DNA of 52,768 nucleotides, from NCBI GenBank assembly GCA_014859545.1, contig JACUTZ010000002.1, forward strand, positions 1 to 52,768. The letters run 5' to 3'. Origin of the DNA: Gammaproteobacteria bacterium. GTDB taxonomy: Bacteria; Pseudomonadota; Gammaproteobacteria; Thiohalomonadales; Thiohalomonadaceae. The notes beneath the pieces are model-generated. The model did not search any database. It was given only the letters and a program-made list of their open reading frames with translations, and had not been told where the DNA came from. Positions 4,983-51,059 of the stretch are shown here, one piece after another; the stretch's first letter is position 1; each line of letters starts with the position of its first letter. Both the position numbers and the translations under genes were made by a program.

Positions 4983-6817
<1,835 letters not shown>

Positions 6818-6821
6818 AAGA

Positions 6822-6931
6822 TCTTCACCGCAGAGGACGCAGAGTACGCAGAGAAAACACCAGGCACGGCATGGATACTGAACATTCACCCACTCCACAT
6901 CCTCTGCGTCCTCTGCGTTGAGATCTTTTTC
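6822..6931. repeat. Palindromic element E4 (CGCAGAGGA class), convergent intergenic region
   Basis: aaaagatcttcaccgcagaggacgcagag ... cctctgcgtcctctgcgttgagatcttttt; complementarity extends outward through AGATCTT. Confidence 0.9.
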
Positions 6932-7901
6932 AGCAACGCTCGAAGTCGAAGGCCTGCACCTCGCCAATCGACTCGATGCCCAATGCCAGCATGATCAGGC
7001 GATCCAGCCCCAGCGCCACCCCGGCGCAGTCGGGCAGGCCATCTGCCAAAGCAGCGAGTAAGGCCTCATCGATGGGCGACTCAGCCAGACCGCGCTCACG
7101 GCGGGTGACCAGGTCCTGCTCAAAACGCCGACGCTGCTCGGCCGCATCACTCAACTCATGAAAACCGTTGGCCAGCTCGATCCCCTGGCAATAAAGCTCG
7201 AAGCGTTCGGCCACACGCGGGTCTTGCGGACTCAGCCGCGCCAGCGCCGCCTGGGAGGCGGGATAGTGTTGCAGGAAGCACAGCCCACCCCGGCCCAGCT
7301 GTGGCTCGATGTGATGGCTGAGGATCAGGTCCAGCCAGCCATCGCGACTCTCGCCCATCTCCATCCCACCGCAGCCCAATCGTTGTGCACAGGCTCGCAA
7401 TCCCGGAATAGTTTCTTCCAGCGGGTCGATATCGGCATATTCAACAAAGGCATCCCGATAATCCAGCCGCCGGGCCGTCCCCTGCAAGCCAAGCATTGGT
7501 GCCACCAGCGCCTCGACCTCATCCATCAGGCGATGGTGATCCCAGCCAGGCCGATACCACTCCAACATGCTGAACTCGGGGTTGTGGCGTCGCCCCGCCT
7601 CGCCCTGTCGGAAGACCTTGCAGATTTGGTAGATTGGCCCGCTGCCAGCGGCCAACAGGCGTTTCATCGCAAATTCGGGGGAGGTATGCAAATACAGGGG
7701 CAGCCCAGCAGCGTGGCCTGGACCAAAATACTGAGTGGTAAAACTTTCAAGCTGGGGATCACTTGTCCCGGCGCGACCAAGCAGCGGCGTCTCCACCTCC
7801 AGCACCCCACGCTCAGCAAAAAAAGCCCGTACCTCAGCGAGGATACGGGCCCGCTCATGCAGGGTGGCCAGCTCGGACGATGGTTGCCAGTTCATGTTCA
7901 A
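6930..7901 (-). CDS. epmA: EF-P--(R)-beta-lysine ligase EpmA (GenX/PoxA)
   Basis: Class II LysRS-like catalytic core without an anticodon-binding domain: FAERGVLEVETPLLGRAGTSDPQLESF...PEFAMKRLLAAGSGPIYQICKVFRQGEAGRRHNPEFSMLEWYR. Confidence 0.95.
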   Translation of the reverse strand: MNMNWQPSSELATLHERARILAEVRAFFAERGVLEVETPLLGRAGTSDPQLESFTTQYFGPGHAAGLPLYLHTSPEFAMKRLLAAGSGPIYQICKVFRQGEAGRRHNPEFSMLEWYRPGWDHHRLMDEVEALVAPMLGLQGTARRLDYRDAFVEYADIDPLEETIPGLRACAQRLGCGGMEMGESRDGWLDLILSHHIEPQLGRGGLCFLQHYPASQAALARLSPQDPRVAERFELYCQGIELANGFHELSDAAEQRRRFEQDLVTRRERGLAESPIDEALLAALADGLPDCAGVALGLDRLIMLALGIESIGEVQAFDFERC

Positions 7902-7908
7902 AAGCTTG

Positions 7909-8052
7909 CAACGCAGAGAACGCAGAGAACGCAGAGGTAATATGGCCTCATGTCAGACAGCAAGACAGCACACTGCTGCTTGCACTTGCCCTGATCAATA
8001 GGCCCGAATCCATTAAAGGGAATTTCTCTGCGTACTCTGCGTCTCTGCGGTG
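7909..8052. repeat. Palindromic element E5 (CGCAGAGAA class)
   Basis: gcaacgcagagaacgcagagaacgcagagg ... ttctctgcgtactctgcgtctctgcggt. Confidence 0.9.
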
Positions 8053-8058
8053 AGCGCC

Positions 8059-8628
8059 TTAATCCCTGGCACGGGAGATGTATTCGCCGGAGCGGGTATC
8101 GACCTTGAGCAGGTCGCCGATCTCGACGAACAGGGGCACCTGTACCACCGCGCCGGTTTCGCAACGGGCCGGCTTGGTGCCGCCGGTGGCGGTATCACCA
8201 CGCAGGCCGGGGTCGGTCTCGACCACGGTGAGGATCACGTGGTTGGGCGGGGTGACGCTGATCGGCACGCCGTTCCACAGGGTCACGGTACACATGTCCT
8301 GTTCCTTGAGCCATTTGGCCTCGTCGCCCACCGCAGAGGGGTCGGCCGCCAGCTGTTCGAAAGACTCCGGATGCATAAAGTGATAGGCTTCGCCATCGTT
8401 GTAGAGGTATTGCATTTCGGTGTCCATCACATCCGCTGCCTCTACCGTATCGCCGGACTTGAAGGTCCGCTCGATGGTACGACCAGTCTTCAGATTGCGC
8501 ACCTTGACGCGGTTGAAGGCCTGGCCCTTGCCCGGCTTGACGAACTCGTTTTCGACGATGGTATTGGGATCGCCGTCGAGCATGATCTTGAGTCCGCGCT
8601 TGAATTCATTGGTGCTGTATGTGGCCAT
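8059..8628 (-). CDS. efp: Translation elongation factor P
   Basis: [50 protein letters not shown]; Lys in loop KPGKGQ. Confidence 0.98.
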
Positions 8629-19180: not shown

Positions 19181-19305
19181 GATTTCACCGCAGAGAACGC
19201 AGAGTTTGCAAAGAAAGGCGATGCCGGAAAATACCGGGTACCCACTGTACTACCCGAGACTCAGGCTGCCTTTCTCTTTGCGCACTTCGCGTTCTTTGCG
19301 GTAAA
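19181..19305. repeat. Palindromic element E7 (mixed CGCAGAG/GCAAAG class)
   Basis: gatttcaccgcagagaacgcagagtttgcaaagaaagg ... cctttctctttgcgcacttcgcgttctttgcggtaaa. Confidence 0.88.
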
Positions 19306-22998: not shown

Positions 22999-25026
22999 TC
23001 AGGTCTTGAAGTGACCAACCAGCGATTGCAATTGATGGGACATACCGGCCAATTGCTGACTGGCCTCTTCCAGTGAAGCGGTGCTCTCTACCGCCTGATC
23101 GGCAATCTGGGTGATGGTCACCAGGTTGCGATTGATCTCACCGGCCACATCGCCCTGCTGACGTGCCGCATCGGCCATGTGCTGATTCATGTCACGGATG
23201 CGCCCGACCGCGGTGGCGATCGCCTGCAGGGAACTGCCCGCGTGACTGGCCTGTTCGACGCTGCTATTGGCCTGTTCGCGACCGCTTTCCATCACCTTCA
23301 CCGCCTCACGGGCGCCACTTTGCAATTGATTAATCATCGTCTGGATCTCGCTGGTGGAATCCTGGGTACGCGAGGCCAGGCTGCGCACCTCGTCGGCGAC
23401 CACCGCAAAGCCGCGCCCCTGCTCACCGGCACGGGCCGCTTCGATCGCGGCATTGAGGGCCAGCAGATTGGTCTGATCGGCGATATCACCGATCACCACC
23501 AAGACCTTGCCGATCGCCGTCGAATCATGCTCCAGACGCTGGATGACCTCACCCGCCTGACCGACGGCCTTGGCCAGGGCATTGATTTGATTCACCGTCA
23601 GGCGCACCACCTCGGCACCGGCCTGGGCCTCCTCATCGGCCTGACGGGTGGCCTCGGCGGCCATCCCGGCGCTGTCGACCATGTCCTGGGCCGTGGCCAG
23701 CATTTCATTCATGGCGGTGGCCACCTGCTCGGTTTCCTGCTGCTGACGTTCGGCCCCCTGACGGGTCTGCAGGGTAATACTGGACATATTGTCAGCAGCC
23801 TGTGCCAACTGCCCGGTTGACTGGCTGACCGGACCGATGATCTCGCGAATCTTGCCCACAAAGCGGTTAAACGCAACACACATCTGTCCCAGCTCGTCCT
23901 TGGTGTCCATATGCAGTTTGCAGGTCAGATCACCGCCGCCACGGGAAATATCATCCATGGTCGCCGCCGCCAACTTGATCGGTTTGACAATCACCTCTAC
24001 CAGCCACCATATCGCCAACAGACCGACCAGCAAGGCGATCACCGCCATCACCAGCACCACCTGACGGGTGGCATTGGTCTGATTCATCAGATCCGCACTG
24101 CGCAGCTCGGTGGTCTCGCGAAGATGCCCCAACAGGCCATCCAGCTCCTGACTGATGCGCCGATTATGACTCCCCAGCTCGGTGCGGAGCAGCCAGGCAT
24201 CGGTGCGCCACTGCTCACCACCATGGATCACCAGTACGCGCGGGTAATTGCTGACGAACTGGGCATGCGCCTCCAACAACTGCTCGGCGGCATCTTCCTG
24301 TTCGAAGGTAAACAATCTGGAATATGCCTGAAGCTCATCCATCTGCCTGGCCATGTTGCCCATCAGCATTTCAATGGAGTCCACATCATTGGCACCACGA
24401 AACGCCAGATAACCACGCAGGCTGCTCATCACACTGGCCAGGGTGTAGCGCATCTCGCCAAGCAGCAATAACAATTCACGCCGCTCCGCCAACGCGTCCT
24501 GGTTGCGCTCAGCCAGGATCATCTGGCTCAGCAGGTGTAACATGTTCTGGGTGTGAGGATTGATATCTGCTCCCGCATAGGCAAAGGCGGGCTGATTGGC
24601 CTGCAGGTTTTCCACCAGCCCCAGCATCTGTTCGCGCATCGCCGCAAAATCCTTGACACCGGCCTCGACCCCGGACAGGTATTCACCCACCCTGGCATCC
24701 TGACGACTCAACGGCATTTGTTGCAGCGTTTGCAACAGGCTAGCGATACGTTCCAGGCTGCGCTGATAGGCATCCCGATGGATGTCTTCGCTGGTCAGTA
24801 AAAAAAAGCCCAGGGATTTATTGGCCGCATCCACTTCACGGGCCAACTCCATCGCACTGAGGACCGCCGGTTGCACGCTACCGGTAACCATTTCAGCCTG
24901 ATAGCGCACCTGCGCCAGGTTGGCCCAGACCACTACCGCCACCAGCGTGATGATACCCATCAACATGCCAAAGGCCAGCATCAGCTTGGTGCGGACGCGT
25001 AAACTGCCCAGCTTCAACATGGACAT
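22999..25026 (-). CDS. Methyl-accepting chemotaxis protein
   Basis: N-terminal TM, HAMP (AAATMDDISRGGGDLTCKLHMDTKDELGQMCVAFNRFV), signalling tip VIGDIADQTNLLALNAAIEAARAGEQGRGFAVVADEVRSLA. Confidence 0.96.
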   Translation of the reverse strand: MSMLKLGSLRVRTKLMLAFGMLMGIITLVAVVVWANLAQVRYQAEMVTGSVQPAVLSAMELAREVDAANKSLGFFLLTSEDIHRDAYQRSLERIASLLQTLQQMPLSRQDARVGEYLSGVEAGVKDFAAMREQMLGLVENLQANQPAFAYAGADINPHTQNMLHLLSQMILAERNQDALAERRELLLLLGEMRYTLASVMSSLRGYLAFRGANDVDSIEMLMGNMARQMDELQAYSRLFTFEQEDAAEQLLEAHAQFVSNYPRVLVIHGGEQWRTDAWLLRTELGSHNRRISQELDGLLGHLRETTELRSADLMNQTNATRQVVLVMAVIALLVGLLAIWWLVEVIVKPIKLAAATMDDISRGGGDLTCKLHMDTKDELGQMCVAFNRFVGKIREIIGPVSQSTGQLAQAADNMSSITLQTRQGAERQQQETEQVATAMNEMLATAQDMVDSAGMAAEATRQADEEAQAGAEVVRLTVNQINALAKAVGQAGEVIQRLEHDSTAIGKVLVVIGDIADQTNLLALNAAIEAARAGEQGRGFAVVADEVRSLASRTQDSTSEIQTMINQLQSGAREAVKVMESGREQANSSVEQASHAGSSLQAIATAVGRIRDMNQHMADAARQQGDVAGEINRNLVTITQIADQAVESTASLEEASQQLAGMSHQLQSLVGHFKT

Positions 25027-25251: not shown

Positions 25252-25965
25252 CTAATCCAGCTTGATACCAAGCCGACTGGCCACTTCTTCGTAGGCCTCG
25301 ACCACCCCACCCAGGCCCTGACGAAAACGGTCCTTGTCCAACTTGTTGCGGGTTTGCTTGTCCCACAGGCGACAGCCATCGGGACTGAATTCGTCACCAA
25401 GGATCACCTGGCCATGGAAACGACCAAACTCCAGTTTGTAATCCACCAGCAGCATACCGGCATCATCGAACAGTTTTTTCAGCACCTCATTGACCCGAAA
25501 GGTCAGGGCTTTCATCTGTGCCACGTCCTCATCGCTCGCCCAACCAAAGGTGCGGATGTGATAATCATTGACCATGGGGTCATGCAGGGCATCGTTCTTG
25601 AGGAAAAATTCAAAAGTTGGTGGGTTGAGATCCATCCCATCCTGGACCCCAAGACGGCGCACGATGGAACCGGCGGCGATATTGCGCACCACACACTCCA
25701 CCGGGATCATCGCCATGCGCTTGACCAGGGCCTCGTCATCGCCGAGCAAGCGCTCGAAGTGGGTCGGGATGCCAGCGGCCTGCAAGGTTTGCATGATAAA
25801 GGCATTGAACTTGTTATTGACCATGCCCTTGCGATCCAGCTGCTCGACCTTTTCCCCATCGAAGGCCGAGGTGTCGTTACGAAACTGCAAGACCAGGTAG
25901 TCCGGGTCATCGGTCAAAAAAACCGATTTCGCCTTGCCCGCATAGAGTTCTGCCCGCTTTTCCAT
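25252..25965 (-). CDS. purC: Phosphoribosylaminoimidazole-succinocarboxamide synthase
   Basis: [47 protein letters not shown]; start trimmed from ORF 26040. Confidence 0.96.
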
Positions 25966-34250: not shown

Positions 34251-34407
34251 GCTCATGCTGCTTGTACCCCAATCAGGTCTTGCTAAAACGCGCACCCTTT
34301 ACGCGCAGCGAGATCCAACATGCCATGTGGATAACTGCGCTCCCCCAGACAGTCAACATGGCTTTTCCTTTTCCAGGCTACAACTGTCATAAAACCACAC
34401 AGGAATG

Positions 34408-34555
34408 CTCTCGCAAAGCCGCCAAGAGCGCCAAGAGAACCATATAGGCATGGGGATGATTTTTCAGCACTCCATGATGGCGGGAGACTAATAGATGCTC
34501 TGATATCAGAATGAAACCTCGCGTTCTTGGCAATCTTTGCGTCTTGGCGAAAAAA
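34408..34555. repeat. Palindromic element E11 (CGCCAAGA/CGCAAAG class)
   Basis: ctctcgcaaagccgccaagagcgccaagagaac ... ctcgcgttcttggcaatctttgcgtcttggcgaaa. Confidence 0.85.
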
Positions 34556-35658: not shown

Positions 35659-35917
35659 TTCACCGCAGAGACGCAGAGGCGCCGAGAAAATTTCGCAAGC
35701 TTATGTCTGCTACCAGTCATCATCATGGGTGTTGCAACATGCCGCCCATTGAGCGGTAAGCGGTTGCGATTCATCTGCCATGATAAGCTATTCATCGCAC
35801 AGCCAATGGCATGCCGAGTCAGCTTTCTCCTGAATAATGGATGATGACTGCGCAATAGCCCTGGCTATGTAGCCATGCTCCCTCCGCGTCTCTGCGTCTC
35901 TGCGTCTCTGCGGTGAT
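35659..35917. repeat. Palindromic element E12 (CGCAGAGA class, long centre)
   Basis: cttcaccgcagagacgcagaggcgccgag ... ctccgcgtctctgcgtctctgcgtctctgcggtgat. Confidence 0.9.
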
Positions 35918-42267: not shown

Positions 42268-42475
42268 CTACCGCAGAGACGCTGAGGCGCGGAGCAAGAC
42301 AACCGTCCAGCATTGTTGCATCCAACTATGGCCGACTGGGCTGACAGGACAATGTGCGCAGTAGACATTACCGACTCAAAACGATTCGCGCATACCATGC
42401 CGAGGTTCAAAAAACACAACGGGCCGTAGCAGCAAAACCAGATCTTCTCTGCGCCTCTGCGCCTCTGCGGTAAAA
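42268..42475. repeat. Palindromic element E13 (CGCAGAG class)
   Basis: ctaccgcagagacgctgaggcgcggag ... ttctctgcgcctctgcgcctctgcggtaaaag. Confidence 0.9.
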
Positions 42476-44094: not shown

Positions 44095-44391
44095 ATGGCA
44101 ATGTTGAAGAGCATCTTTTGGTTGGGAGTGATTATCGTGCTTTTGCTAGCGGCAAGCTATATCTGGCGTGATGATTTTCCCTGGCTGGCGCGCCTGCATC
44201 AGGAACTCGCTATGCCGCCACTGCCCACCGCCGTGGATCCATTACCTGCCCCCAGCGGCAAGGTCGTGGTCTACCGCTGGCAAGATGAGCAGGGCAACTG
44301 GCACTTTGACAGCCAGCCACCCCGTGACCAAGCCTATGAGCGCCTCGTCCTCGACCCGGATGTCAATCTGATGCCTGGGGGTGGGCAGTAA
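44095..44391 (+). CDS. Small membrane-anchored DUF4124-like protein
   Basis: IFWLGVIIVLLLAASYIW...VVYRWQDEQGNWHFDSQPPRDQAYERLVLDPDVN. Confidence 0.75.
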   Translation: MAMLKSIFWLGVIIVLLLAASYIWRDDFPWLARLHQELAMPPLPTAVDPLPAPSGKVVVYRWQDEQGNWHFDSQPPRDQAYERLVLDPDVNLMPGGGQ

Positions 44392-44579
44392 GTGCTAAAA
44401 AAGATCATTAGACGACTAGGACGGAGTCGGTTGGCGATGCCGGGAACAGATCGCCCAGACACAGAGGCATTCAGTGGTGTATTTGCACCACATCGGCGTT
44501 CATATACGGTCGACCATCCGTGAGAGTTTCCTCCATCTGAATATCGAACAGACCTTCGACATACGGTTTGACCATTAAT

Positions 44580-44615
44580 CCTCTGCGCCTCTGCGTCTCT
44601 GCGGTAATATCTTTT
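44580..44615. repeat. Right arm E14 (CGCAGAG class); left arm degenerate or absent
   Basis: cctctgcgcctctgcgtctctgcggtaatatcttttt; only a weak cagacacagaggcattc at about 44456 on the other side. Confidence 0.65.
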
Positions 44616-44641
44616 TCAAGAGGGCGAGTAGTTACCAAAAA

Positions 44642-44929
44642 CTACTTCTTAGGCTTACCAATACGATCGATCGGGATCACCACATCACTCTGTGGCTTGG
44701 GTTCATCCACATAGCGCGGACGCTGGTCCATGCTGCGCCCGGCCTGCTGGGCCAGCTCCTGCTCACGCTGGCTGATCAGCATCAGGCAGTCGCGCATGCC
44801 ATTGATGGTATTGCCGGAAAGGGGATGGAGCTGGCCAGGCTCGGTGGCGGTGTCCTTGATCACCTCGGTCAACACACGCTTGACCGCATACAGGATCTGT
44901 TCTTCTTTACTCATGTCATTCAAATTCAT
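44642..44929 (-). CDS. Conserved hypothetical protein, 95 aa
   Basis: MNLNDMSKEEQILYAVKRVLTEVIKDTATEPGQLHPLSGNTINGMRDCLMLISQREQELAQ; start trimmed from 45367. Confidence 0.7.
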   Translation of the reverse strand: MNLNDMSKEEQILYAVKRVLTEVIKDTATEPGQLHPLSGNTINGMRDCLMLISQREQELAQQAGRSMDQRPRYVDEPKPQSDVVIPIDRIGKPKK

Positions 44930-46521: not shown

Positions 46522-46643
46522 CACACCGCAACACAGAGGCCACAGAGTCCACAGAGAACAACAGGTCGCAGACATCAGGAACGCACACCAACATCTGCCA
46601 GGCTGAGTAAACTCTGTGTTCCCTGTGCCCTCTGTGGTGATCG
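46522..46643. repeat. Palindromic element E16 (CACAGAG class)
   Basis: acaccgcaacacagaggccacagagtccacagag ... actctgtgttccctgtgccctctgtggtga. Confidence 0.87.
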
Positions 46644-47296: not shown

Positions 47297-47854
47297 ATGG
47301 ATCTACGAGAAGATTTGGTACGCCATTACCAGTGGCTGCGCCAGTACGGCAATAACGACTCCCACAGCGGCAATGCCTCGGTGCGGGTCGAGGATGATTT
47401 CTGGATCACCCCGACCGGCTGCTGTGCCGATCTACTGAGTGCCGACCAGCTGATCCGTTGCGAGCTAGAAGGCACAGATGGTGCCAATGCTTCACTGGAT
47501 GCACCCCTGCACCGAATGGTCTATCAACACAACCCCACTGCCCGTGCGCTGCTGCACAGCCACGGCCCCCATAGCGTGGCAATGACCATGCAAGGCGAGG
47601 ATTTCATCCCGCCGGATTTTGAAGGCCAACTGTATTTTCCCCGCGTGCCGGTGATCGACATCCCCTTTGATCGCTACACCAGCGAGGCCCCGCAGCAGGT
47701 GGCCGAGTTGCTGGCCGAACACCGCATCATCGTGGTACGCGGCCATGGGGTGTTTGCCCAAGCCGAAACCATCAACCTGGCCTACAAATGGCTATGCTCA
47801 CTGGAGCTGTCCGCCAAGACCGCCTGGCTGGCCCAACAGGCGGGCACCCTGTGA
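47297..47854 (+). CDS. Class II aldolase/adducin-family protein
   Basis: NDSHSGNASVRVEDDFWITPTGCCADLLSADQLIRCELEG...ALLHSHGPHSVAMTM. Confidence 0.9.
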   Translation: MDLREDLVRHYQWLRQYGNNDSHSGNASVRVEDDFWITPTGCCADLLSADQLIRCELEGTDGANASLDAPLHRMVYQHNPTARALLHSHGPHSVAMTMQGEDFIPPDFEGQLYFPRVPVIDIPFDRYTSEAPQQVAELLAEHRIIVVRGHGVFAQAETINLAYKWLCSLELSAKTAWLAQQAGTL

Positions 47855-48654
47855 GCGGCATTCCAGTGGTGCTATGCCTGTCCGGCAACGATCCCTGCGG
47901 CGGGGCCGGCATCCAGGCCGATATCGAGGCCATCGCCAGCATGGGGGCGCTGGCTGCCCCGGTGATTACCGCGCTGACGGTACAGGACAGCCAGAATGTG
48001 ATGCGCCTGGAGCCGGTGGACCCGCTGCTGATCATCGAACAGGCCCGCGCGGTGCTGGAAGACATGCCAGTGGCGGCGATCAAGATCGGTCTGATCGGCA
48101 GCGTGGAAAACATCCAGGTGATCCACAGCCTGTTGCACGACTACCCGGACGTCCCGGTGGTGCTCGACCCAATCCTGCGCGCCGGTGGTGGCAATCGCCT
48201 CAGCACCGACGCGATGGAGCAGGCGTTGCGCCAGCTGCTATTTCCCTATGTCACGGTACTCACCCCCAATAGTCAGGAGGCCCGCGCCCTGGCCCAGGAG
48301 GCCGACACCCTGGATGCCTGCGCCCAGCAGCTGCTTGACGATGGCTGCGAGCTGGTGTTGATCACTGGCACCCATGAAGATACCCAGGCGGTGGAAAACC
48401 GTCTCTATGGTAATCATCGCCTGCTGGAGACCTTCAGCTGGGAACGCCTGCCACACAGCTACCACGGCTCCGGCTGCACCCTCGCCGCCAGCATCGCCGG
48501 TCTGCTGGCCCACGGCCTGGAACCCTTTAGTGCCATCCACGAGGCCCAGGAATACACCTGGCAAACCCTCGCCCATGGCTTTCGCCTCGGCATGGGCCAG
48601 CACCACCCCAATCGCTTGTTCTGGGCCCGTGGCGAGGATGATGAACAAGATTAA
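47851..48654 (+). CDS. thiD: Hydroxymethylpyrimidine/phosphomethylpyrimidine kinase
   Basis: VLCLSGNDPCGGAGIQADIEAIASMGALAAPVITALTVQDSQ; GTG start at 47851 overlaps the aldolase stop (GTGA). Confidence 0.94.
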   Translation: MSGIPVVLCLSGNDPCGGAGIQADIEAIASMGALAAPVITALTVQDSQNVMRLEPVDPLLIIEQARAVLEDMPVAAIKIGLIGSVENIQVIHSLLHDYPDVPVVLDPILRAGGGNRLSTDAMEQALRQLLFPYVTVLTPNSQEARALAQEADTLDACAQQLLDDGCELVLITGTHEDTQAVENRLYGNHRLLETFSWERLPHSYHGSGCTLAASIAGLLAHGLEPFSAIHEAQEYTWQTLAHGFRLGMGQHHPNRLFWARGEDDEQD

Positions 48655-48872
48655 CCGCAAAGGGCGCGAAGGTCGCAAAGAAAAGAAACCGTGCCACAGA
48701 GGACACAGCGATCACGGAGGGCATTCCGGCAACCGTCGTGTTCAGACGCGTTTGTGACAGGCACATCGCCCGTCAAAACCTTCGGCAGGCCAAATGAGCA
48801 TTGAATTCTCTGTGTTCTCCGTGTCCTCTGTGGCTAATTTTTCTTTGCGTACTTTGCGGTTTGCTTTTATTT
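48653..48872. repeat. Composite nested palindrome E18: outer CGCAAAG arms, inner CACAGAG arms
   Basis: aaccgcaaagggcgcgaaggtcgcaaagaaaag..gccacagaggacacagcgatcacggagg ... ctctgtgttctccgtgtcctctgtggc..tttttctttgcgtactttgcggttt. Confidence 0.9.
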
Positions 48873-48885
48873 CTTAGGTTATCCG

Positions 48886-49515
48886 ATGACAAAACGACAA
48901 CTGCCCCGTGGGCTTTATGCGATTACCGACAGCAAGCTGCTGTCGCCGGAACAGATGGTCCAGGCAGTAGCCCAGGCCATCCACGGCGGCGCGGTGATGA
49001 TCCAATACCGCGACAAGGGCGAGGATGCCTCGCGCCGTCTGTGGGAGGCCCAGGACCTGTACAATATCTGCCGCCCACTGGGGGTGCCGCTGATCATTAA
49101 CGACGATGTGGCACTGGCCGCGCAGGTGATGGCCGACGGGGTACACCTGGGCCGGGACGACGGGGATATCGCCATCGCCCGTGCCAAACTGGGTGAGCAG
49201 GCGATCATCGGGGTGTCCTGTTACGACCAGCTCGATCTGGCCCTCGCCGCCGAGGCCGCCGGGGCCGATTACGTGGCCTTCGGCAGCTTTTATTCCTCCC
49301 AGGTCAAACCCACGGCGGTGCGTGCCAGCCTTGAGCTACTGCAACAGGCCAAACAGCGCCTGAACATCCCGGTGGTTGCCATCGGCGGCATCAATGCGGA
49401 CAATGGCGCCCCATTGGTGGCCGCCGGTGCCGACATGCTGGCGGTGATCAACGCCGTGTTCGGCCAGGCCGACGTGAGCGCCGCAGCGGCACACATCACC
49501 AAACTGTACGAATAA
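48886..49515 (+). CDS. thiE: Thiamine-phosphate synthase
   Basis: LPRGLYAITDSKLLSPEQMVQAVAQAIHGGAVMIQYRDKG...DYVAFGSFYSSQVKPTA. Confidence 0.95.
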   Translation: MTKRQLPRGLYAITDSKLLSPEQMVQAVAQAIHGGAVMIQYRDKGEDASRRLWEAQDLYNICRPLGVPLIINDDVALAAQVMADGVHLGRDDGDIAIARAKLGEQAIIGVSCYDQLDLALAAEAAGADYVAFGSFYSSQVKPTAVRASLELLQQAKQRLNIPVVAIGGINADNGAPLVAAGADMLAVINAVFGQADVSAAAAHITKLYE

Positions 49516-49518
49516 CAT

Positions 49519-49743
49519 ATTCACCGCAGAGACGCAGAGACGCAGAGACGACAAAATATAGCCACAGAGGACACAGGGGTCACAGAGATTTGCTTTCCGG
49601 TAGAAGCCAAAGTCTTGTGGCAAGCGCATCACCTTTCCACTGCCACAATAATATCCCGGTAATGGTTAAACCTCTGTGTCCTCTGTGGCAAATCTTTTCT
49701 TTGCGTTCTCTGCGCCTCTGCGCCTCTGCGCCTCTGCGGTGAG
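49519..49743. repeat. Composite nested palindrome E19: outer CGCAGAG arms, inner CACAGAG arms
   Basis: ttcaccgcagagacgcagagacgcagagacg..gccacagaggacacaggggtcacagag ... cctctgtgtcctctgtggcaaatcttttctttgcgttctctgcgcctctgcgcctctgcgcctctgcggtga. Confidence 0.93.
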
Positions 49744-49772: not shown

Positions 49773-51059
49773 ATGCCCAACGCCCACGAACTGTTTGTCG
49801 CCGCCCAGCAACACATCCCCGGTGGAGTCAATTCGCCGGTACGCGCCTTCAAGGGGGTCGGTGGTGAGCCGGTGTTCTTCAAGAAGGGCCTCGGTGCCTA
49901 TGTGTGGGCCGAGACGGGCGAGAAGTACATCGACTACGTGGCCTCCTGGGGACCGATGGTGGCCGGCCATGCCCACCCGGAGGTGATCAAGGCGGTACAG
50001 GAAACCGCGGTCAACGGTCTATCCTTCGGTGCACCCACGGTGTTGGAAACAGTAATGGCCGATGAGCTGGTCAGACTGGTGCCCTCGATGGACATGGTGC
50101 GCATGGTCTCCAGTGGCACCGAGGCGACCATGAGTGCGATCCGCCTGGCCCGTGGCTATACCGGGCGCGACAAAATCGTCAAATTCGAGGGCTGTTACCA
50201 CGGCCATTCCGACTCGCTGCTGGTCAAGGCCGGTTCCGGCGCGCTGACCCTGGGCGTGCCCAGCAGCCCCGGCGTGCCGGCAGCACTGGCCGACTTCACT
50301 ATCACCCTGCCCTATAACGATATCGATGCGGTGAAAACCGCCTTTGCCGAGATCGGCCCGCAGGTCGCCTGCATCATCGTCGAGCCGGTGGCGGGCAACA
50401 TGAACTGCATCCCGCCGGTACCCGGCTTCCTCGAAGGGCTGCGCGCAGTTTGTGATGAACACGGCAGCGTCTTGATCTTCGACGAGGTGATGACCGGTTT
50501 TCGCGTTGCCCTGGGCGGCGCCCAGGCCCACTACAAGATCCAGCCGGACCTGACTACCCTGGGCAAGGTGGTCGGCGGCGGCATGCCGGTGGGGGCCTTT
50601 GGTGGCAAGCGTGCGATCATGGAACACATCGCCCCGCTGGGCCCGGTCTACCAGGCCGGCACCCTCTCCGGCAATCCGGTGGCGATGGCCGCCGGCCTGG
50701 CCACCCTCAAGCTGGCCGCCGCCCCCGGCTTCTATGAGGGCATCGCTGCCAAGGTCGAGCGCCTGGTCACTGGCATCATGGCCAAGGCGAAAGCGCACGG
50801 CATCCCGATGAGCGAAAACCACGTCGGCGGCATGTTCGGCCTGTTCTTCACCGAGGAGAAGACCATTACCTCCTTTGGCCAGGCGGTGGAAAAATGCGAT
50901 GTGGAGCGCTTCAAGCGTTTCTTCCACGGCATGCTCGAAGAAGGGGTGTATCTAGCCCCCTCCGCCTTTGAAGCTGGCTTCGTCTCCGCCGCCCATACGG
51001 AGGCGGATATTGACGCCACCATCGAGGCGGCCGGTCGGGTACTGGCACGCATCGGCTAA
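49773..51059 (+). CDS. hemL: Glutamate-1-semialdehyde 2,1-aminomutase
   Basis: [63 protein letters not shown]. Confidence 0.98.

Follow-up and report, generated by a model that had tools for sequence, protein, structure and literature searches.

Nested hairpin elements on either side of thiE are probably non-coding members of a dispersed fold-back family associated with GxxExxY genes

We find that the two composite elements on either side of thiE, here called E18 and E19, are probably nested, non-coding copies belonging to a dispersed family of fold-back elements that lie between genes and whose coding members carry a single GxxExxY gene, with thiE itself a bystander. For this family we directly observed the anatomy, the copy number, the association with GxxExxY, in-place flipping, and the conservation of occupied sites under a change of unit class. 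GxxExxY (TIGR04256/PF13366) is a PD-(D/E)XK nuclease family of unknown function, and may be the partner enzyme of the hairpin elements.

More tentatively, we propose that GxxExxY proteins could be dedicated, structure-specific nucleases of pan-bacterial mobile fold-back elements with 8-12-nt units, with S23p as their heptamer counterpart; spread, replacement and flipping would then proceed via arm hairpins, and composites would be a by-product. This proposal would give GxxExxY a testable role, would use a simple rule of arm period to connect each of two orphan gene families with its own kind of inverted tandem-repeat arm, and would offer a common explanation for the CGCAGAG/CACAGAG-type intergenic repeats of several phyla. 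Additionally, hairpin elements that are flipped in place between bacterial species join dispersed repeats to replication template switching and, possibly, to a dedicated nuclease.

Results

Architecture of E18 and E19

Within the window (the whole stretch of 52,768 nucleotides that was analysed), E18 occupies the spacer between thiD, which lies upstream (47788-48654), and thiE (48886-49515, forward strand), and E19 the spacer between thiE and hemL, which lies downstream (49773-51059). The gene names, including the identification of thiE as encoding thiamine-phosphate synthase, follow the initial annotation and conserved synteny, with no family search behind them. Each element consists of an outer arm pair that encloses an inner arm pair.

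The outer left arm of E18 (48653-48684, forward) overlaps the thiD stop codon and holds three 8-9-nt units of the CGCAAAG class (CGCAAAG/CGCGAAG/CGCAAAG). The inner left arm (48693-48719, forward), GCCACAGAGGACACAGCGATCACGGAG, is of the GCCACAGAGGACACAG class and matches an arm of L158, a GxxExxY element of the same genome, with 22/27 identity. An interior of 88 nt (48720-48807), without counterpart among the sampled elements, is followed by an inner right arm of the GCCACAGAGGACACAG class (48808-48834, reverse) and an outer right arm of two CGCAAAG-class units (48839-48861, reverse). E19 begins 6 nt past the thiE stop codon with an outer left arm of CGCAGAGA units of the CGCAGAG class (49521-49550, forward), and continues with the inner left arm GCCACAGAGGACACAGGGGTCACAGAG (49561-49587, forward; 24/27 identity with the L158 arm), the interior (49588-49669) and the inner right arm (49670-49689, reverse). 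Its outer right arm (49695-49742, reverse) has five units versus three in the left arm, and leads into a T-tract.

The initial annotation had placed two composites directly before and after thiE. Both are real and lie where they were placed, with the same outer and inner classes, and the gene positions agree. The gaps between outer and inner arms, given there as 10-20 nt, are shorter, at about 4-10 nt, and the description of the two elements as near-identical inverted modules was overstated: the best match across thiE, formed by the inner arms of E18 and E19 as mutual inverted repeats, is 17 nt perfect or 39 nt at 82%.

RNA folds of E18 and E19 are far more stable than those of shuffled sequences (z -7.0 and -10.0). 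E19 has a coding sibling in its own genome for both of its unit classes (L136 and L158). The inner-arm identity to L158 (22-24/27) and an outer class as in L136 place both composites among the GxxExxY-bearing inverted-tandem-arm elements as we define them.

The element family in the genome

Elements in the genome that contains the window (G000; 2.44 Mb, 253 contigs) consist of two inverted arms around a mostly unique interior, each arm holding about three tandem 8-9-nt units of the form C[AG]C[ACG][ACG]AG (also written CRCRRAG) plus 1-2 nt. The units come in the dialects CGCAGAG, CGCAAAG, CACAGAG and CGCCAAG, and 58 of 62 simple two-arm elements use the same dialect on both arms. Arm-to-arm identity also exceeded a same-class permutation, a comparison that is biased by the choice of elements and that we do not count as proof. 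Interiors typically span 50-130 nt and are unrelated between elements, except in one multi-copy family of 165 nt.

The pattern CGCARAG-N1-2-CGCARAG has 474 matches in G000 versus 10 for the reversed-pattern control, and GCCACAGAGGACACAG with one mismatch has 53 versus 0. From these motif counts we estimate that the genome probably holds 200 or more of these intergenic hairpins. Sampled sequence of 521 kb contained 79 long inverted repeats, the majority of them CRCRRAG-unit elements, and simple elements occupy ~10% of intergenic DNA (7.7 of 75 kb sampled), figures that come from stretches partly picked for containing hits, from simple element detectors, and from a simple ORF heuristic for the gene calls that define spacer context. 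The elements had no match in Rfam, and a search of the open-access literature with the repeat strings found no relevant paper. The nearest named genome, judged by ThiE (83% identity), is that of an Ectothiorhodospiraceae MAG (L061).

The window itself carries roughly a dozen CRCRRAG-type elements or more. Simple elements of the CGCAGAG class are found at 4984-5111, 6825-6921, 7911-8049, 35660-35916 (with a long interior) and 42269-42472, and one with mixed CGCAGAG/CGCAAAG arms at 19189-19300. At 46532-46636 the window has a CACAGAG-class element where the spacer of the sister genome G001 has one of the CGCAGAG class. Arrays of the CGCCAAG class are present as a lone arm without a partner (2861-2893) and as a pair (34396-34549). 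The genome also contains a distinct inverted-repeat family, GCAGGCGTAACCCCCTGATTTCTGGT (L098 10418-10528, L109 1268-1371 and 6828-6931), and a further dispersed family of GTAGGGTGGATAAGCG-type inverted repeats (L104 145-228, L110 10918-11003).

Further composites occur elsewhere in G000 and in other genomes. At L104 4194-4390 a CGCAAAG pair encloses a CACAGAG pair, at L099 8164-8568 a member of the 165-nt family lies inside another element, and two genomes of one genus (L039 and L040) have a composite at the same thiE-hemL site, with CACGGGG outside CACAGAG. Composites number about 4 among some 80 sampled elements of G000 (~5%), a frequency that needs no targeting, because simple elements already fill ~10% of intergenic DNA. 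Nested composites are about as frequent as crowding predicts, E18 and E19 do not form a device centred on thiE, and the data support nothing peculiar to thiE. The idea that one class is inserted into another by targeting survives in its first half: the inner element at L099 is a member of the multi-copy 165-nt family, and element-into-element insertion is therefore well supported there, while nesting at about the chance rate does not support targeting. A fixed or modular outer-inner order, also put forward, was not borne out, as CGC outside with CACAGAG inside occurs in only three cases in G000 and is not significant.

GxxExxY and four-helix-bundle genes inside inverted arms

The interior of one CACAGAG element of G000 (L109 2403-2842) is a complete TIGR04256/PF13366 ORF. 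With an arm score of at least 12 as the call, inverted arms enclose the GxxExxY gene at 25/28 loci in relatives and 21/28 in Desulfobacterota, compared with 0/29 for ParE, 3/30 for thiE and 0-1/140 for shuffles. Unit sequences in these arms vary widely, and their periods are mostly 8-10 nt, occasionally 12. Eight GxxExxY records from a plasmid collection showed clear arms in three (Gemmatirosa, Bacteroides finegoldii and Bernardetia) and weak arms or none in five.

The number of GxxExxY genes per genome follows the number of arms (rho 0.64 over 56 genomes, without phylogenetic correction), yet G007, G009 and G015 are rich in elements and had no GxxExxY detected. Coding and non-coding elements of G006 share an arm dialect (93-94% over about 30 nt), and ATCCTG arms are confined to G051, whose GxxExxY gene bears ATCCTG arms. 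The catalytic residues of the family (E, D, ExK and Q) are invariant. An empty site is evident between radA and a gene for an FAD protein, which are 13 nt apart in Parabacteroides and enclose an arms-GxxExxY-arms element in B. finegoldii. We found no relative of GxxExxY in viral contigs or phages and no convincing homologue in a profile search of the PDB; PADLOC returned weak Cas4 hits only, with a weak Cas4 likeness in one member. The open-access literature searched held no paper describing the link between GxxExxY and arms, nor one on GxxExxY function.

Inverted arms also surround four-helix-bundle genes (TIGR02436) from relatives (L166-L191, for example L167, L172 and L185), in 14/25 loci. 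The arm period is 7 in 13 of these 14, which suggests that the bracketed loci are chromosomal relatives of rRNA intervening sequences (IVS). In Coxiella, the 23S rRNA IVS combines terminal inverted repeats with an S23p ORF that is preceded by tandem heptamers, and the IVS of Coxiella and Leptospira is described as a selfish element whose RNA stem is cleaved by RNase III (PMC4990558). The Coxiella IVS matches the pairing of heptamer arms and four-helix genes seen here.

Flipping and turnover between genomes

Whole elements, a composite included, flip in place between genomes. An element of 74 nt in the spacer from gmd to the GDP-L-fucose synthase gene (gmd-fcl) differs between Bacteroides ovatus and B. 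finegoldii by 4 mismatches when inverted versus 16 when compared directly; its flanks are collinear and the element alone is inverted. The thiE-hemL composite has turned over as a whole between L039 and L040: the spacers between its arms match only in inverted orientation (p<1/5000; p=0.25 for direct). The pair G015/G018 was also compared, and its orientation was ambiguous. Other short inverted repeats (AATGTGCCAATCCG...) occur in B. ovatus L341, for example at 24605-24654 and 25397-25518, and are absent at the same junctions of B. finegoldii.

Between thiE and hemL, some genomes have just a short spacer without any element, and others have elements of various classes there. Structural variants and empty sites in relatives, which the initial annotation had proposed as a check, were found as empty spacers and the inverted L039/L040 composite, and no rearrangement of thiE was seen in the fetched relatives holding all three genes. 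Because the thiD-thiE site of G001, the only same-genus genome, has a CACAGAG element alone, the inner element of E18 could be older than the outer one. Simple insertion of the inner element into the outer would then not explain E18.

Comparison of spacers between G000 and G001 found 12 occupied in both, 8 and 1 occupied on one side, and 23 in neither (p=1e-4). Spacers empty in G001 include those at 44375-44642 of the window and at L126 6885-7162. The unit class differs in most pairs of co-occupied sites and the interiors do not align; homology between loops of the two genomes, sought in either orientation, was absent beyond the element near position 7901 of the window and a weak match at thiD-thiE. 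Sites thus persist while element identity turns over, and conserved occupancy could instead reflect selection for a hairpin at the site. The interior of the window element at 7911-8049 is homologous to that of a G001 element, and in the G001 ortholog of 7901-8077 (L314) the element is tandemly duplicated, with an additional CACAGAG-class element next to it.

Discussion

We suggest that the arms of an element would pair into a hairpin or cruciform, on which two processes could act. Slippage inside an arm, together with template switching by DNA polymerase from one arm to the other, is a known mechanism that may keep the arms alike and flip the interior. GxxExxY probably acts on the arms as well, with a putative cut at the hairpin or cruciform followed by repair or copying that would lead to spread or replacement, and non-coding copies would be served by GxxExxY in trans. 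Composites would arise where one element lands within another in crowded intergenic DNA. Nearly every copy has an interior of its own, so spread is not simply a matter of whole elements being copied intact.

GxxExxY might instead be a passenger, a small gene that survives in fold-backs maintained by slippage and template switching alone, and we consider this unlikely but deserving of weight. Template switching between imperfect inverted repeats, as outlined in PMC8604942, homogenises arms and inverts the spacer; on that outline, flips and matched arms are explicable without a special enzyme, host replication being sufficient for both. The unrelated S23p four-helix-bundle family is likewise found in similar arms. 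However, the arm period tracks the gene it surrounds, GxxExxY having mostly 8-10-nt units and four-helix loci 7-nt units in 13/14, ParE genes, which are likewise small and accessory, never lie inside arms (0/29), and the GxxExxY catalytic residues are invariant.

It is rather improbable that the elements are host-functional hairpins, either bidirectional terminators or stabilisers of mRNA 3' ends, that are under structural selection and in which nesting provides a longer stem. Many elements do lie 8-15 nt past a stop codon, their RNA folds are very stable, and 32/56 have AAAA ahead of the left arm and 35/56 have TTTT behind the right arm (9 and 7 for the opposite arrangement). The continued occupation of G000/G001 sites (p=1e-4) despite changed class and interior is also consistent with such selection. 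The spacers that hold elements, however, are divergent, co-directional and convergent in 15/25/13 cases versus a background of 59/109/52, with no bias to gene 3' ends, and elements lie within the conserved thiD-thiE-hemL order. Intrinsic terminators are short-loop GC hairpins with a T run directly behind them; in these elements T-tracts are common but offset, and interiors are long, those of ~100 nt being poorly suited to termination. Host-functional hairpins would also leave the GxxExxY link unexplained.

Mobilisation by a RAYT (Y1 transposase), as for REP/REPIN-type elements, is very unlikely. The likeness is real, in that REPINs are hundreds of intergenic hairpins of inverted pairs, non-autonomous and with a proposed dedicated partner protein (PMC3116915). 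However, REPs are single palindromes that are mostly GTAG- or CGTC-tagged (PMC3733652), whereas the arms here are tandem CRCRRAG units with no REP palindrome. The REPIN partner is a HUH transposase and the candidate partner here is a PD-(D/E)XK nuclease; G000 has a single Y1_Tnp match, a weak one interrupted by an internal stop, and Y1_Tnp number barely follows arm number (rho 0.31 versus 0.64 for GxxExxY).

Least credible is the earlier suggestion that thiE is a cassette inverted or excised via its flanking modules: E18 and E19 do carry inner arms that are inverted relative to each other across it (17 nt perfect; 39 nt, 82%), but this homology is short, the same elements adjoin many other genes, and thiD, thiE and hemL are collinear, with constant order and orientation, in every fetched relative holding all three, which also argues against a site-specific invertible cassette.

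The dispersed fold-back family that we favour resembles the IVS/S23p system in its inverted terminal arms, which in coding members form a long stem enclosing one small ORF. IVS differ in lying in rRNA genes, encoding S23p and having 7-nt units, whereas the present family occupies intergenic DNA, is built mostly of 8-9-nt units and includes coding members with a PD-(D/E)XK nuclease gene. E18 and E19 fall outside that system, as their interiors are too short for an S23p ORF and their units are of 8-9 nt. Foldback (FB) transposons of animals have a variable middle flanked by inverted repeats, which are themselves composed of short tandem units. They have tandem-unit inverted arms in common with the present elements, but are far longer, eukaryotic and without GxxExxY. 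MITEs are short, non-coding and bounded by terminal inverted repeats, and their copies share interiors; the elements described here differ from them in having unrelated interiors, and no target-site duplication was established for the elements.

The one exception is the 165-nt family, whose members with a common interior lie at L098 16273-16428, L099 8270-8434 and L115 330-495. This family sits within a larger repeat that ends in GTAACTACTCGCCC/GTATCTACTCGC-like sequence, and the same end is present in the window at about 44603-44640, where it adjoins the element at 44581-44603. Additionally, some CGCAGAG arms are chimeric with another repeat (GTCGGTTGGCGATG...GAACA..GCCCAGA and CGACTAC-GTAGTCG hairpins), at 44420-44640 of the window, at L098 200-330, and in the spacers of G001 that are orthologous to those at L100 15813 and L126 5059.
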